64,000 nucleotides of DNA from an uncultured Pseudoruegeria sp. GTDB lineage: Bacteria; Pseudomonadota; Alphaproteobacteria; Rhodobacterales; Rhodobacteraceae. The translations under genes were made by a program, and so were the position numbers. Of this stretch, positions 42,938-48,483 are shown piece after piece. The number at the start of each line of letters is the position of its first letter. Position 1 is the first letter of the stretch. The stretch spans positions 1 through 64,000 of the forward strand of contig CANMJD010000001.1 of NCBI GenBank assembly GCA_947498155.1. Direction: 5' to 3'. Under the pieces are notes generated by a model. It saw only the letters and a list, made by a program, of their open reading frames with translations, did no database searches and was not told the origin of the DNA.

Positions 42938-43429
42938 ATGCGCGTTGGATTGTATCCGGGAACTTTTGACCCGATTACCTATGGTCATGTCGATATTATC
43001 CGGCGCAGTGCCGGTCTGGTCGACAAGCTGGTAATCGGGGTGGCGATCAACCGTGACAAGGGCCCGTTGTTTGATCTTGATGAACGGGTGGCGATGATCG
43101 AGGCAGAGTGCAAAATCCTCTCTGAAGAAACCGGCACCATCATTAAGGTGCATCCGTTTGAAAATCTTCTGATTGATTGCGCGCGCGATGTCGGTGCGCA
43201 GATCATTCTGCGCGGCCTGCGGGCTGTGGCCGATTTTGAATATGAGTATCAAATGGTCGGGATGAACCGTGCCCTGGATAGCACTGTTGAAACGGTGTTC
43301 CTGATGGCCGAAGCCCGTCATCAGGCGATTGCGTCAAAACTGGTCAAGGAAATTGCCCGCCTTGGCGGTGATGTGACCAAGTTTGTACCGCCCGCCGTCA
43401 ACGACGCGCTGATCACACGGCTGCGTTAA
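42938..43429 (+). CDS. coaD: Phosphopantetheine adenylyltransferase
   Basis: CoaD transfers AMP to 4'-phosphopantetheine, the penultimate step of CoA synthesis. The 163-residue protein has the nucleotidyltransferase motif GTFDPITYGHVDI (residues 9-21, His18) and ISSTxxR-like end block ASKLVKEIARLGGDV. It is the normal length for the hexameric enzyme. CGGAGA lies upstream of the ATG. Confidence 0.96.
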   Translation: MRVGLYPGTFDPITYGHVDIIRRSAGLVDKLVIGVAINRDKGPLFDLDERVAMIEAECKILSEETGTIIKVHPFENLLIDCARDVGAQIILRGLRAVADFEYEYQMVGMNRALDSTVETVFLMAEARHQAIASKLVKEIARLGGDVTKFVPPAVNDALITRLR

Positions 43430-43440
43430 CCGGCTGTTCC

Positions 43441-43472
43441 AAAAACAAACAAGCCGCCCGTTGCGGGGCGGC
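43441..43472 (-). terminator. Intrinsic terminator of the 52-residue gene
   Basis: GCCGCCC (43453-43459) pairs with GGGCGGC (43466-43472). On the minus strand it continues into TTGTTTGTTTTT. It lies 48 nt past the stop of the small gene and also close to the end of convergent coaD. Confidence 0.8.
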
Positions 43473-43520
43473 CTTGCTGCGGTGCAGTCCTGTGCGGGCT
43501 GCGCGTAACTTGTGGGCTGT

Positions 43521-43679
43521 TTAGCCGTAAACTGCTTTGCTCGCGATTTTATGTGCGTCTTCGCGAAAGATACCAAGATCAAGTGCAACATCCAGTGGCA
43601 TAGCTTGGATTTCAGCAACAGTACGGTTGTAATCTGCGCGTTTCTGGGCGGCTTTGCGAACGTTTGTAAAAAGTGTCAT
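43521..43679 (-). CDS. 52-residue DUF1127-like small protein
   Basis: This short gene encodes MTLFTNVRKAAQKRADYNRT followed by a helix-rich half containing MPLDVALDLGIFRED and ending ASKAVYG. The pattern of a basic N-terminal helix followed by a leucine-rich (A)L-DLGI-R-D-(H)-I-A motif matches DUF1127-type small proteins of alphaproteobacteria, some of which affect phosphate or RNA metabolism. AAAGGAAA lies before the ATG, a U-tract terminator follows, and the upstream region is packed with inverted repeats. These make it a real, separately regulated gene. The function is unknown. Confidence 0.82.
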   Translation of the reverse strand: MTLFTNVRKAAQKRADYNRTVAEIQAMPLDVALDLGIFREDAHKIASKAVYG

Positions 43680-43709
43680 TTCATTTTCCTTTGTGTTTGC
43701 GTCTCTTTC

Positions 43710-43719
43710 TTAGCGCTAA
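43710..43719. promoter_or_regulatory. CceR-like (LacI-type) operator upstream of the small gene
   Basis: TTAGCGCTAA is a perfect palindrome 31 nt upstream of the small gene's ATG. It is the same core as the operators next to both gap genes. Confidence 0.6.
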
Positions 43720-43727
43720 CATAAGTG

Positions 43728-43742
43728 TGCTGCGCCGCAGCA
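43728..43742. repeat. Perfect 15-nt inverted repeat upstream of the small gene
   Basis: TGCTGCG-C-CGCAGCA: seven-base arms around a single central base. It may be a protein-binding site. The spacer is too short for a hairpin. Confidence 0.45.
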
Positions 43743-43769
43743 AAAACCCACAAATCGGTCTGTCCGGTA

Positions 43770-43806
43770 TGCGTTAAATGCATAGGCTGTGCGTCAAACG
43801 CATAGG
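43770..43806. repeat. Pair of tandem operator-like repeats
   Basis: A 17-nt unit occurs twice (43770-43786 and 43790-43806) with two mismatches and 20-nt spacing, about two helical turns. The second unit contains the perfect inverted repeat TGCGT-CAA-ACGCA, and the first contains TGCGT-TAA-ATGCA. This is the usual look of a dimeric repressor or activator binding two adjacent sites on one DNA face. I do not recognise the regulator. Confidence 0.55.
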
Positions 43807-43839
43807 AATACCCACCAAAGAACAATAACGTCGACAAAA

Positions 43840-43869
43840 AAAGCCCGCTGGCCGGGGCCAACGGGCTTT
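43840..43869 (-). terminator. Intrinsic terminator of gap (first copy)
   Basis: AAAGCCCG / CGGGCTTT with an inner TGGC/GCCA helix. The minus strand runs on into TTTTTTTGTCG. It lies 24 nt past the gap stop. Confidence 0.85.
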
Positions 43870-43892: not shown

Positions 43893-44894
43893 TTACAGGT
43901 ATTTCGCCATCTCGACAGCCGTATCGGCCATCCGGTTGGAGAAGCCCCATTCATTGTCATACCACGTCAGAATGCGGCACATGTTGCCGTCCATGACTTT
44001 GGTCTGATCCGTGGCAAAGATAGAGGAACGCGGATCGTGGTTGAAATCCATAGACACCAGCTTGGCATCGGTGACACCCAGAATGCCGTTCAGTTTGCCC
44101 GCTGCCGCAGCGTGGATCGCAGCGTTGATTTCCTCAACACTGGTGTCGCGATTGGCTTCAAAGGTCAGATCAACAACCGATACATTCGGGGTCGGTACGC
44201 GGATGGCAACACCGTCCAGTTTCCCGTTCAGTTCCGGCAGCACCAGACCCACGGCTTTGGCAGCCCCGGTGGAGGTCGGGATCATGTTGGCCGCTGCTGC
44301 GCGGGCGCGATACAGATCGCTGTGCATGGTGTCCAAAGTCGGCTGATCACCGGTATAGCTGTGGATCGTGGTCATGAAACCGCGCTTAATACCAATAGTA
44401 TCGTTCAGCACTTGGGCCACAGGCGACAGGCAGTTGGTTGTGCAAGAGGCATTGGAAACAACGATGTCATCACCTGTCAGCACATCGTGGTTCACACCGT
44501 AAACGATGGTCTTATCTGCACCGGCAGAGGGGGCAGAGACCAAAACGCGGCTAGCACCATTTTCAAGATGGATCGCGGCCTTGTCACGGGCGGTGAAAAT
44601 GCCGGTGCATTCCAGCACGATGTCCACATGACCCCAAGGCAGCTCGGCGGGGTTGCGGATCGCTGTCACTTCGATCGGGCCACGGCCCACGTCGATGGTG
44701 CTTTCGGTTGTGGTCACTTCCTTTGGAAAACGGCCATGCACAGAGTCATACCGCAAAAGATGAGCATTGGTTTCAACCGGACCCAGATCGTTGATTGCCA
44801 CAACCTCGATATCGGTGCGACCCGCTTCTTCGATTGCGCGCAGAACGTTACGACCGATGCGGCCAAATCCATTGATTGCTACTTTTACAGTCAT
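43893..44894 (-). CDS. gap: Type I glyceraldehyde-3-phosphate dehydrogenase, NAD-type
   Basis: The 333-residue enzyme has the Rossmann motif NGFGRIGR (residues 8-15) and the active-site Cys151 in SNASCTTNC. Asp36 in AINDLGP occupies the position that binds the adenosine ribose and selects for NAD. The ATG at 44894 follows family length; a frame three codons longer exists. A CceR-like operator lies 64 nt upstream. It probably serves the glycolytic/Entner-Doudoroff direction, with the second copy serving the other; this division of labour is inferred. Confidence 0.95.
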   Translation of the reverse strand: MTVKVAINGFGRIGRNVLRAIEEAGRTDIEVVAINDLGPVETNAHLLRYDSVHGRFPKEVTTTESTIDVGRGPIEVTAIRNPAELPWGHVDIVLECTGIFTARDKAAIHLENGASRVLVSAPSAGADKTIVYGVNHDVLTGDDIVVSNASCTTNCLSPVAQVLNDTIGIKRGFMTTIHSYTGDQPTLDTMHSDLYRARAAAANMIPTSTGAAKAVGLVLPELNGKLDGVAIRVPTPNVSVVDLTFEANRDTSVEEINAAIHAAAAGKLNGILGVTDAKLVSMDFNHDPRSSIFATDQTKVMDGNMCRILTWYDNEWGFSNRMADTAVEMAKYL

Positions 44895-44957
44895 GTTATG
44901 CAAACCCCTTTTCGGAACACATGCCTTCGGGCGCAGTCAGGTGACGCCCCGTCAATT

Positions 44958-45188: not shown

Positions 45189-46193
45189 CTAGTGGAGGAG
45201 CCGCCCCATCGCTGCCGCGACATCTGCCATCCGGCAAGAGAAGCCCCATTCGTTATCATACCATGCCAGAACCCGCACGGTACGACCACCAATAACCTTG
45301 GTCTGGTCCGGCGCAAAGATGCAGGATTGATTTGTATGATTAAAATCGATGGAAACTTTCGGTTCCGGATCATAGGAAAGCACTGCTCCCATATGGCCGG
45401 CAGCGGCTTCGCGCATGATTTCATTCACGCTTTCGACGGTGACGCCCTTTTTGGCCTCAAAGGTCAGATCAACCGCAGAGACATTTGGGGTTGGGACGCG
45501 CAGGGCGGTGCCATCCAGCTTGCCTGCCAGTTCCGGCAATACCTCAGAAAGCGCCTTGGCCGCGCCGGTCGAGGTCGGGATCATCGCCATGGCGGCAGCA
45601 CGGGCGCGGTACAGATCGCTATGGCGCCGGTCCAATGTGGGCTGATCGCCGGTATAGCTGTGGATGGTGGTCATTAACCCGCGCTCGATACCGATGGTAT
45701 CATTCAGCACTTTGGCCAGCGGGGCCAGACAGTTGGTGGTGCAGGAGCCGTTAGAGATCATGCGATCACCCGCCAGCATCTCGCGGTGGTTGACCCCGTA
45801 GACAATCGTGCGGTCGACGTTTTTGGCAGGGGCTGAGATCAGCACTTTCTTGGCACCGCGCTCCAGATGCACGTCGGCCTTGTGGCCGTCGTTGAATTTA
45901 CCAGTGCATTCCAGCACCACGTCAACGCCGTTCCAATCCAGTTCTTGCGGATCATAGGTCGAAAACACTTCCATCGGGCCGCGGCCCAAATCCATTGTAT
46001 TGCCATCAACCCGCACATTGCCGGGAAAACGGCCATGTACAGAGTCATAGCGCAGCAGGTGGGCGTTTGTTTCAATCGGGCCAGTTGCGTTGATTTTTAC
46101 AACCTGCACATCATTTCGCGCGCTTTCGGCGATATGGGCCAAAGTACAACGTCCAATGCGGCCAAATCCATTGATACCGACGGTGATGGTCAT
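45189..46193 (-). CDS. gap2: Type I glyceraldehyde-3-phosphate dehydrogenase, putative NADP-type
   Basis: This 334-residue paralogue has NGFGRIGR and catalytic Cys151 (SNGSCTTNC). Where the first copy has Asp36, it has Ala (KINATGP). Loss of that Asp is known in NADP-using, gluconeogenic GAPDHs such as Bacillus GapB. It is therefore predicted to prefer or accept NADP(H). The ATG at 46193 is used, since seven codons upstream are not conserved. Three CceR-like operators lie 112-178 nt upstream, between it and the transketolase gene. Confidence 0.93.
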   Translation of the reverse strand: MTITVGINGFGRIGRCTLAHIAESARNDVQVVKINATGPIETNAHLLRYDSVHGRFPGNVRVDGNTMDLGRGPMEVFSTYDPQELDWNGVDVVLECTGKFNDGHKADVHLERGAKKVLISAPAKNVDRTIVYGVNHREMLAGDRMISNGSCTTNCLAPLAKVLNDTIGIERGLMTTIHSYTGDQPTLDRRHSDLYRARAAAMAMIPTSTGAAKALSEVLPELAGKLDGTALRVPTPNVSAVDLTFEAKKGVTVESVNEIMREAAAGHMGAVLSYDPEPKVSIDFNHTNQSCIFAPDQTKVIGGRTVRVLAWYDNEWGFSCRMADVAAAMGRLLH

Positions 46194-46304
46194 GTCCGGG
46201 CTCTCCTTAACCACTTTCCTGTTGCGTGGGCTGCAACGGTATTGCCAAGGGATATACGGGGTAGATCGTTAAGGGGCCAATAGGAAAGTGGCGTTTTTCC
46301 AATG

Positions 46305-46357: not shown

Positions 46358-46371
46358 CCTTAGCGCTAACA
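46358..46371. promoter_or_regulatory. CceR-like operator 3 upstream of gap2
   Basis: CCTTAGCGCTAACA contains the perfect core TTAGCGCTAA, as in the site upstream of the small gene. Confidence 0.6.
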
Positions 46372-46467: not shown

Positions 46468-48483
46468 TTACAGCAGCTCTTTGGCTTTCGCCACGGCGGC
46501 ATCGGCGGTGATGCCGAAATGCTCAAACAGCTCACCCGCAGGGGCAGAGGCCCCGAAACCTTCCATGCCGATAAAGGCGGATTTGGCTTCGCGGCCGCGC
46601 TCACCCAGCAACCACGTATCCCAGCCCTGACGCACGCCTGCCTCAATCGCGATGCGCACGGCGCCACCGGGCAGCACGCGCTTGCGATAGGCTTCGTCCT
46701 GCTCGGCAAACAGCTCCATGCAAGGCATGGACACAACCCGTGTCCCGATGCCCTCTGCTTCCAGTTTTTCACGAGCCGCCAAAGCAACTTCGACCTCAGA
46801 ACCAGTGGCCATCAGGATAACCTGACGTTTGTTTTCGGCTTCGGCCAGCACATAGGCGCCTTTGGCAGTAAGGTTGTTGTTCTTATGCTCTGTGCGCACC
46901 GTTGGCAGGCCCTGACGGGACAGCGCCAGAACCGAGGGGGTCGATTGGCTGGACAGGGCAATTTCCCAGCTTTCCGCGGTTTCCACCACATCGGCGGGAC
47001 GGAATACATAGGTGTTCGGCGTCGCGCGGCTGATTGCCAGATGCTCGACCGGCTGGTGGGTCGGACCATCTTCGCCCAGACCGATGGAGTCATGGGTCAT
47101 GACAAAGACCGTCGGAATTTGCATCAAAGCTGCCAGACGCATGGCAGGGCGGGCGTAGTCGGTGAAGCACATGAATGTGCCACCATATGCGCGCACACCA
47201 CCGTGCAGCACCATGCCGTTCATCGCAGAGGCCATGCCATGTTCACGGATACCGTAATAGACATAACGCCCTTTGCGGTTATCCGGTGCAAAAACGCCCA
47301 GATCATCGGTTTTGGTGTTGTTGGAGCCGGTCAGATCGGCAGAGCCGCCCACGGTTTCGGGCATGATCGGGTTGATCACTTCCAAAGCCATTTCGCTGGC
47401 CTTGCGGGTCGCGACTTTGGGCAGCTCTTCGCTGGCTTTTTTCTTCAGCTGTTTGACCACCGCGCTCAGGCGTTTGGGGGTCTCTTTGGCATAGATGCGG
47501 GTGATCTCTGCCTGACGGCCCTGGGACAATTCCGCGAAGCGTTCCTGCCAGGCGGCAAATTCTGCGGCACCGGATTTGGCCATATCTTCCCAACCGGCCT
47601 TAACATCGGCGGGAATGTCAAAGGGACCATGCTCCCAGCCGTAAACGGCGCGGGTGTCTGCGATCAGTTGCGCATCAGTCAATGCGCCATGGCCTTTGGA
47701 AGTATCCTGTGCCGAAGAGCCCAAAGCAATATGTGTTTTACACGCGATCATCGAGGGGCGACGGGCGGCTTTGGCTTCGGTGATGGCGCGATCGATATCT
47801 TCGGGGTCGTGGCCGTCGCATTCGACAACATGCCAACCAGAGGCGCGGAAGCGTTTCATCTGATCGGTTTTGTCAGACAGTTCTACCTTGCCGTCAATCG
47901 TGATGCCATTGTTGTCCCAGAACACGATCAGCTTGGCCAGTTCATGCTTGCCCGCAAGGCCGATGGCCTCTTGGCTAACACCTTCCATCAGGCAGCCGTC
48001 ACCAGCGATAACATAGGTAAAGTGATCAACGACCTTTTTGCCGTACCGCGCGCGCTGGATTTGCTCTGCCATGGCAAAGCCGACCGAATTGGCAATCCCC
48101 TGACCCAAGGGGCCGGTGGTGGTTTCAATGCCCGTGGCATGGCCGAATTCCGGATGACCTGCGGTTATGGCGCCCCACTGGCGAAAGTTTTTCAACTGCT
48201 CAATGGTCATGTCTTCGTAACCGGTCAGGTGCAGCAGCGAATACAGCAACATAGAGCCGTGGCCCGCAGACAGAATAAACCGGTCACGATCGGGCCAGTT
48301 CGGGTTTTTAGGGTCAAACTTCAGATGTTTTTCAAACAGCACGGTGGCCACATCGGCCATGCCCATGGGCATACCGGAATGGCCGGAATTTGCAGCAGCA
48401 ACCGCATCCAGCGTCAAAACGCGAATGGCAGCGGCTTTTTTCCAATGATCGGGGTGTTGTGCGCGCAAGGCAGAGATGTCCAC
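46468..48483 (-). CDS. tkt: Transketolase
   Basis: Transketolase moves two-carbon units between sugar phosphates in the non-oxidative pentose phosphate and related routes. The 671-residue length is standard. [13 protein letters not shown] with the NN-containing end [10 protein letters not shown] is the thiamine-diphosphate/metal motif, [13 protein letters not shown] holds the catalytic Glu of the second domain, and the C-terminal domain is complete. It is in the same direction as the two gap genes, with the operator cluster downstream of its terminator. Confidence 0.97.

Follow-up and report, generated by a model that had tools for sequence, protein, structure and literature searches.

A small DUF1127-type gene of Rhodobacteraceae with putative VtlR/LsrB-type, PhaR and CceR sites in its promoter

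Our analysis of a 64,000-nt stretch of DNA from an uncultured Pseudoruegeria sp. (contig CANMJD010000001.1; hereafter the window) indicates that a 52-aa reading frame is probably a small Rhodobacteraceae gene of the DUF1127 type, activated by a LysR protein of the VtlR/LsrB kind and carrying two carbon-repressor sites on its core promoter. The promoter elements are present in the window, are conserved at preferred spacings in homologues, and consist of boxes common to pha, Entner-Doudoroff and VtlR-type targets. The elements are real and conserved, and the sequence evidence would largely explain the gene as a DUF1127 gene of the VtlR type that also takes input from PhaR and CceR. The combination of inputs and the taxonomic extension are new; the kind of system is not. 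Among the open-licence PMC full-text matches listed, no paper was seen to report that a DUF1127 gene of Rhodobacteraceae is controlled by PhaR, CceR or a VtlR-type regulator.

The gene lies on the minus strand at positions 43521-43679 of the window (stop codon counted in), and its ATG at 43679 is preceded by AAAGGA. It is convergent to coaD (42938-43429), and gap (43893-44903) lies upstream of it; both neighbours were named from their own translations. A hairpin scan found terminator-like hairpins on the minus strand 3′ of the gene (43451-43474) and at the end of the upstream gap gene (43840-43869), and the region scanned contained five such hairpins against a shuffle mean of 1.1. Since predicted terminators flank the gene on both sides, this suggests that it would be transcribed as a monocistronic unit. 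An Rfam search of the window locus itself gave one match only, at chance level. Six genomes each contain two adjacent copies of the small gene: L006 (G142), L007 (G198), L013 (G118), L029 (G073), L106 (G079), and L122 (G036).

The original prediction called the gene DUF1127-like. The PF06568 (DUF1127) profile scored the 52-aa protein at 16.5 bits (E 0.0073), under the gathering score of 23.3, and no match was found upon an NCBIfam search with the protein. Among 22 homologues scanned with PF06568, 16 matched at E ≤ 1, the best at E 9.7e-4. Profile A1, built from 22 family members, found matches at E 1e-4 in 128 of the 198 genomes of the window's family, other DUF1127 proteins included. It also reached the gene of locus L153 (G030:C383:17477-17620) with E 9.8e-7, and the protein of this gene scores 51.1 bits against PF06568. 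Judged by these comparisons, the 52-aa protein is a diverged DUF1127 relative, below the cut-off itself and linked by profile to a bona fide member; the predicted kinship holds at the profile level, but not as a Pfam match above threshold.

The single sequence as query found matches at E 1e-3 in 77 of the 198 family genomes, and 23 loci from named records, all Rhodobacteraceae or Rhodobacterales, also match. Lengths in the set of 90 non-redundant homologues run from 49 to 59 aa, bar one of 45 aa truncated at the edge of the fetched stretch; 89 of the 90 have a VYG-like C-terminus, and identity to the window protein falls to about 42% within the set. The AlphaFold2 model of the 52-aa protein has helices at 2-26, 29-35, and 39-51 with a mean pLDDT of 90. 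The protein contains 7.7% Arg with a net charge of +2, and the mean Arg content of the family is 12.7%. DUF1127 proteins of Agrobacterium have been reported to bind PhoR and damp phosphate uptake, those of S. meliloti, R. sphaeroides, and E. coli can substitute for them, and RNA binding is reported for the R. sphaeroides protein CcaF1 (PMC12501420). CcaF1 has been described as a 71-aa protein whose operon also contains four homologous sRNAs. By analogy, the 52-aa protein probably acts by binding a protein partner, as with PhoR in Agrobacterium, or RNA, as with CcaF1.

All promoter elements lie no more than 127 nt from the ATG. Comparison with homologue promoters led us to propose TATGTT (43718-43723) as the −10 hexamer and TTTTGC (43740-43745; often TTGTGC in relatives) as the −35 hexamer, both on the minus strand; an E. 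coli-type promoter scan of the region found none. The putative CceR-type palindrome TTAGCGCTAA (43710-43719) overlaps the end of the proposed −10 and the start site. The putative PhaR box TGCTGCGCCGCAGCA (43728-43742), a perfect inverted repeat with a 1-nt centre and the core CTGC-N3-GCAG, sits in the −35/−10 spacer. Two 17-nt direct repeats, TGCGTTAAATGCATAGG (43770-43786) and TGCGTCAAACGCATAGG (43790-43806), are 88% identical and spaced by 20 nt. A putative proximal LysR (VtlR/LsrB-like) box of the form T-N11-A was placed at 43770-43782 on the minus strand, around −66 (TGCATTTAACGCA on the gene strand), and its putative distal copy at 43790-43802, also on the minus strand, around −86 (TGCGTTTGACGCA).

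The palindrome, the perfect 15-nt inverted repeat, and the two tandem repeats had all been predicted and are indeed present. The 15-nt repeat and the tandem repeats had been left unrecognised; the former matches the PhaR/PHB box, and the latter resemble VtlR/LsrB-like LysR boxes. TGCGT-N3-ACGCA, which had been singled out as the motif, is present but is a local variant, as TGC[GA]T-N3-A[CT]GCA occurs in 4 of the 90 homologue promoters, and the conserved part is TGC-N7-GCA. This is T-N11-A, the generic LysR box, at its usual promoter place. A second copy of the element 18-24 nt away was found in only 4 of the 90. As readers of TGCGT-N3-ACGCA, NtrC, RamB/PccR, FadR-type GntR, and PurR were set aside on spacing.

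The homologue promoters were collected from 95 loci, which gave 99 tblastn hits and 94 unique upstream regions, and a redundancy filter dropped four of these to leave 90. Patterns were counted in the last 180 nt before each gene, with dinucleotide shuffles as the null and, as an extra control, 384 other 180-nt segments, both strands, from 32 of the homologue loci. CTGC-N3-GCAG was found in 44 of the 90 promoters (shuffle mean 0.6, maximum 4 in 200 shuffles), TGCTGC-N3-GCAGCA at ≤1 mismatch in 46 (0.1 in shuffles), TTAGCGCTA in 17 (shuffle mean 0.0), TTAGCGCTAA at ≤1 mismatch in 34 (0.5 in 20 shuffles), the 12-mer GTTAGCGCTAAC at ≤2 mismatches in 56 (0.3 in shuffles), and TGC-N7-GCA in 78 (shuffle mean 10.2, maximum 17), counts that are not independent because the homologues share descent. 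Two scrambled patterns stayed at chance level. The 384 control segments contained CTGCN3GCAG in 2, the 15-mer in 0, the 10-mer in 9, the 12-mer in 9, and TGC-N7-GCA in 25. Each class of element is strongly enriched in the homologue promoters by both comparisons.

Other spacings of TGC-Nk-GCA were raised in the raw counts (N6 59, N3 53, N1 37, N15 34, N12 33, and N9 29 of the 90), mostly because of PhaR-type sites. With these masked, the counts became N6 20, N3 12, N1 21, N15 16, N12 17, and N9 9, and N7 was still the commonest spacing with 63 of the 90, followed by N1 and N6. TGC-N7-GCA was lacking in 12 of the 90 promoters, the exact PhaR core in 46, and the CceR-type 10-mer at ≤1 mismatch in 56; all three together were found in only 15. 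Absence of the motif from relatives that keep the gene had been named as evidence against the prediction. Our counts show that the element classes are kept in many such relatives but are missing in some.

The elements also have preferred positions. The distance from the end of TGC-N7-GCA to TTG[TC] is exactly 23 nt in 59 instances and 24 nt in 5, and the alignment of 79 promoters reads GC-NN-TGCA-N5-TGCA-NN-GC, then gGcttT, then TTGT. The exact PhaR core starts 41-43 nt past the TGC, which is the −35/−10 spacer, in 23 cases (42 nt in the window), and 6 nt ahead of the TGC, fused to the left half, in 16 cases. For CceR-type sites at ≤2 mismatches, the start lies 3-5 nt past the TTG in 16 promoters, 12-15 nt past it in 11, 26-27 nt past it in 9, and elsewhere in 4.

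The perfect 15-mer TGCTGCN3GCAGCA was found at four places in the 3.71-Mb genome: one is the small-gene promoter, two precede the first phasin gene of the phaC-phasin-phasin-phaR locus, and the fourth (C3:134819-134833, L059) lies within an ORF near a purB-like gene and may be chance or an unrecognised PhaR target. At the pha locus (C1:687269-687988; L057, L058, L065) several CTGC-N3-GCAG occur around both phasin genes and phaR, among them copies ahead of the second phasin gene and near the phaR start. Pfam gave PhaC_N, two Phasin_2 matches barely over the cut-off, and PHB_acc_N with PHB_acc. The PhaR site of R. sphaeroides has been given as CTGCNNNGCAG, and its source describes phasin genes as repressed by PhaR until PHB titrates it (PMC12542648). 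By the core shared with the pha genes and by this published site, the 15-nt repeat is a candidate PhaR (PHB-sensor) box. The phaR gene was found in 191 of the 198 family genomes, the window's included. A relaxed scan of the own genome with the 15-mer at ≤2 mismatches gave 368 places per strand against 68 for the reversed control, which is too noisy beyond the strongest sites.

The palindrome TTAGCGCTAA, which we take to be of the CceR type, occurs at seven places in the genome against six for the reversed control, so the count is uninformative and only the positions speak for CceR. Five of the seven places belong to the small-gene promoter, the second gap gene, zwf, edd, and eda (enzyme families by Pfam), about 146 nt before the second gap, 20 nt before zwf, and 49 nt before edd; the one linked to eda is within edd, at its end, and some 98 nt ahead of eda. 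Of the remaining two, one is close to sdh-like genes and one to an aminotransferase-like gene. In the window, the copy at 46360-46369 is upstream of the second gap (45189-46214, minus strand) and beside a transketolase-like gene (46468-48483, minus strand). A simple six-frame scan near the seven sites found no LacI-type motif. Alphaproteobacterial CceR has been reported to respond to 6-phosphogluconate (PMC4419725). The guess that the palindrome is CceR-like agrees with these positions.

VtlR, the Brucella homologue of LsrB, is described as activating three DUF1127 genes and the sRNA AbcR2, with the motif CAATGCAGCCATGCA (PMC12595884). The reverse complement of this motif, TGCATGGCTGCATTG, resembles the promoter consensus, TGCAtgGCgGCttT of our alignment. 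The published VtlR 15-mer was matched at ≤4 mismatches in 32 of the 90 promoters (3.9 in shuffles), at ≤2 in 3, and at ≤1 in 0. The LsrB box in PabcR1 of S. meliloti has been given as GCAT-N3-TG-N3-T. In S. meliloti, most sequences are reported to have tandem T-N11-A ahead of the sigma-70 signature, and removal of the predicted site lowered PabcR1 activity more than 22-fold (PMC8844928).

The strict 21-mer GCYATGCA-N5-TGCATRGC was found at 36 places in 32 of the 198 genomes, with 0 for the reversed-pattern control, and 31 of the 36 places were read. Three precede the gene family of the window, 10 precede other DUF1127 genes, 9 a CCTCCCTGTTGGAC sRNA, 5 are situated between efp and a gene of the DUF6280 type, 3 are unclear, and 1 is terminator-like; none of the 31 was recognised as a pha gene. 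All 10 other DUF1127 genes exceed the Pfam cut-off, and several are divergent from an Mrp-type gene (one Mrp tested). The palindrome between the divergent efp and DUF6280-type genes was seen in five genomes (L152, L155, L156, L164, and L170; one pair tested). The strict 21-mer at C3:55151 of the own genome was rejected as a LysR box, for it lies in a longer hairpin flanked by AAAGCCCG/CGGGCTTT and is probably a terminator. A relaxed scan of the own genome with the 21-mer at ≤1 mismatch gave 425 places per strand against 152 for the control, again too noisy beyond the strongest sites.

A LysR gene is present in the same genome at C1:406373-407296, and a SorX/SorY-like sRNA gene lies directly downstream of it. 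This sRNA copy (C1:407341-407507; L128 1501-1667) has a perfect VtlR-type palindrome, and 33 nt separate the box from the proposed −35, about one helical turn beyond the spacing of the small gene. Its covariance scores are all below threshold: SorX 45.7 bits (gathering 46.6), SorY 47.7 (111), and mmgR 24.3 (41). The closest PDB sequence to the LysR protein is 9hh1 (E 1.4e-68; the next 1.2e-26), deposited as A. tumefaciens LsrB (PMC11975290). The helix-turn-helix is closely similar to that of LsrB. We therefore call the protein LsrB-like, and orthology would rest on similarity, neighbourhood, and motif. LsrB has been described as unique to Rhizobiales (PMC11975290). A close relative of the LysR protein of this genome (E 1e-90 or better) was found in 190 of the 198 family genomes; as nearly every genome has phaR and nearly every genome has the LysR gene, their co-occurrence with the small gene cannot test the link. 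In 29 LysR sequences (28 from the family and L195 from another), C144 of LsrB is replaced by V in 28 and I in 1, and C273 by A in 28 and V in 1. Since both cysteines are absent, the LysR input signal probably differs from the Agrobacterium redox signal.

A motif-free search with the SorY covariance model covered 41 genomes and matched 21 of the 25 family genomes. Twenty of the 21 best sRNA loci (L175-L194) follow a LysR gene that shares 68-83% identity with the one described above, own copy aside; the other, L197, has neither the LysR gene nor the box, and its genome is also without the LysR gene. Nine other fetched loci (second matches or other families) are without a LysR gene except L195 (50% identical, with a perfect 21-mer). 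TGC-N7-GCA is present in 17 of the 20 LysR-linked loci (shuffle mean 2.6, maximum 9), and other spacings from N3 to N11 are present in 2-4. The boxes lie 111-122 nt before the CTCCCTG motif in 14 of the 17; the other three, found only at 94-96 nt and so in a different register, may be a different element.

A scoring matrix built from these 17 sRNA-promoter sites placed its best position on TGC-N7-GCA in 78 of the 90 small-gene promoters, and 69 of the 90 scored above the 99th percentile of shuffles. The window boxes are weaker than the family consensus, with the outer GC pairs mostly gone, and only the proximal copy beats shuffles (2.2% of shuffles reach its score, and 30% reach the distal score). 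The tandem repeats may best be read as T-N11-A LysR boxes resembling the published VtlR/LsrB box, with the proximal box of the window as a partial match. A second DUF1127 gene of the genome, L205 (C1:894297, above the cut-off), has a similar plan with TGCATTCGCTGCATAGCGGCTTTG, TGTGCATCTGCAGCA, and TGTTAGCGCAATC; none of the three patterns was found in at least 250 nt scanned at three others, L207-L209. The density of control that had seemed striking for one small gene is therefore not unique to it, as L205 and the sRNA gene share parts of it.

In an alternative reading, all TGC-rich elements, tandem repeats included, would be PhaR sites, the 21-bp palindrome would be two tandem GC-N3-GC boxes for a tetramer, and no LysR protein would take part. 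The palindrome can indeed be divided into two GC-N3-GC units, the 16 cases of CTGC-N3-GCAG fused to its left half point the same way, PhaR of B. diazoefficiens has been described as a tetramer with the motif NGCN3GC, and the sRNA MmgR of S. meliloti as repressed by PhaR. However, the fixed 23 nt to the −35 is an activator-like position, the right half of the element resembles the published VtlR motif, and the strict palindrome marks DUF1127 genes and the sRNA beside the LysR gene, with no pha gene recognised among the 31 places read. We consider a role for PhaR at every element unlikely, because the box precedes an sRNA gene beside an LsrB-like gene and because of the published VtlR motif.

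Some LacI-family regulator besides CceR might likewise read the palindrome at −10/+1, as the CceR gene was not identified in this genome; yet the same 10-mer precedes zwf, edd, eda, and the second gap, a set expected of a 6-phosphogluconate-responsive regulator, and another reader seems unlikely. It is very unlikely that no regulator binds and that what is seen are remnants, or the texture of a GC-rich promoter, conserved from shared ancestry only. In favour of this, the promoters are homologous, the distal window box scores like shuffles, and one or more elements are missing in many homologues. But the −35 spacing is kept though the proteins fall to about 42% identity, PhaR-type and CceR-type sites each persist at more than one preferred position, and the same boxes recur at unrelated loci.

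Our preferred reading is LysR activation with PhaR and CceR repression, in which binding, the direction of regulation, and protein function are what we infer. The LysR protein (C1:406373-407296) would bind both T-N11-A boxes, around −66 and −86, and recruit RNA polymerase to the weak −35/−10, and the core promoter would be blocked by PhaR in the −35/−10 spacer and by CceR at −10/+1. When Entner-Doudoroff flux rises, 6-phosphogluconate would rise and CceR would leave. When PHB forms, PhaR would be titrated onto granules and the 52-aa protein would be made, once CceR is also off. As both CceR release and PhaR titration would be needed, the protein would signal carbon surplus, and the gene probably reports this state to the cell. 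The original prediction proposed a hub joining carbon status with another signal, and this is partly supported, as it fits the operator conservation in the 90 promoters.

A wider proposal can be made only tentatively. Rhodobacteraceae may carry an unrecognised VtlR/LsrB-type regulon of several DUF1127 genes, a SorX/SorY/mmgR-like sRNA, and efp-DUF6280. In it, small-protein promoters would act as logic gates that open only when three conditions coincide: LysR activation, high Entner-Doudoroff flux (CceR off), and the presence of PHB (PhaR off). Carbon surplus might then be relayed by the 52-aa protein to a different nutrient system, with the PhoR phosphate sensor as the likeliest, so that phosphate uptake would depend on the state of the storage polymer. 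Little is known of the inputs of the widespread DUF1127 proteins, and a conserved promoter pointing to three regulators offers direct inputs that can be tested in one branch. It would also tie small-protein and sRNA control to PHB storage and sugar flux, and the VtlR/LsrB regulon would reach beyond Rhizobiales.

Compared with known systems, the arrangement resembles the VtlR/LsrB regulon of Brucella, Agrobacterium, and Sinorhizobium in its LsrB-like LysR gene, adjacent sRNA gene, boxed DUF1127 genes, and T-N11-A near −65. In S. meliloti, abcR1/abcR2 adjoin lsrB (PMC8844928). It differs in that the sRNA is SorX/SorY/mmgR-like and not AbcR, two LsrB cysteines are absent, PhaR-type and CceR-type sites are overlaid on the small-gene promoters, and the order is Rhodobacterales. 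As in the PhaR (AniA) regulon, CTGC-N3-GCAG is in the core promoter of the small gene as it is ahead of the phasin genes of this genome, but the target is a DUF1127-type small protein gene and not a phasin or depolymerase gene. As for the CceR regulon, TTAGCGCTAA is in the small-gene promoter as it is ahead of zwf, edd, eda, and the second gap of this genome, but the target is no metabolic enzyme. The protein family shares with CcaF1, YjiS, and the Agrobacterium SDPs (DUF1127) a short helical form, a D-[LI]-[GDN] core, and profile kinship, but it is a diverged branch that scores under the Pfam cut-off and conserves a VYG at its C-terminus.
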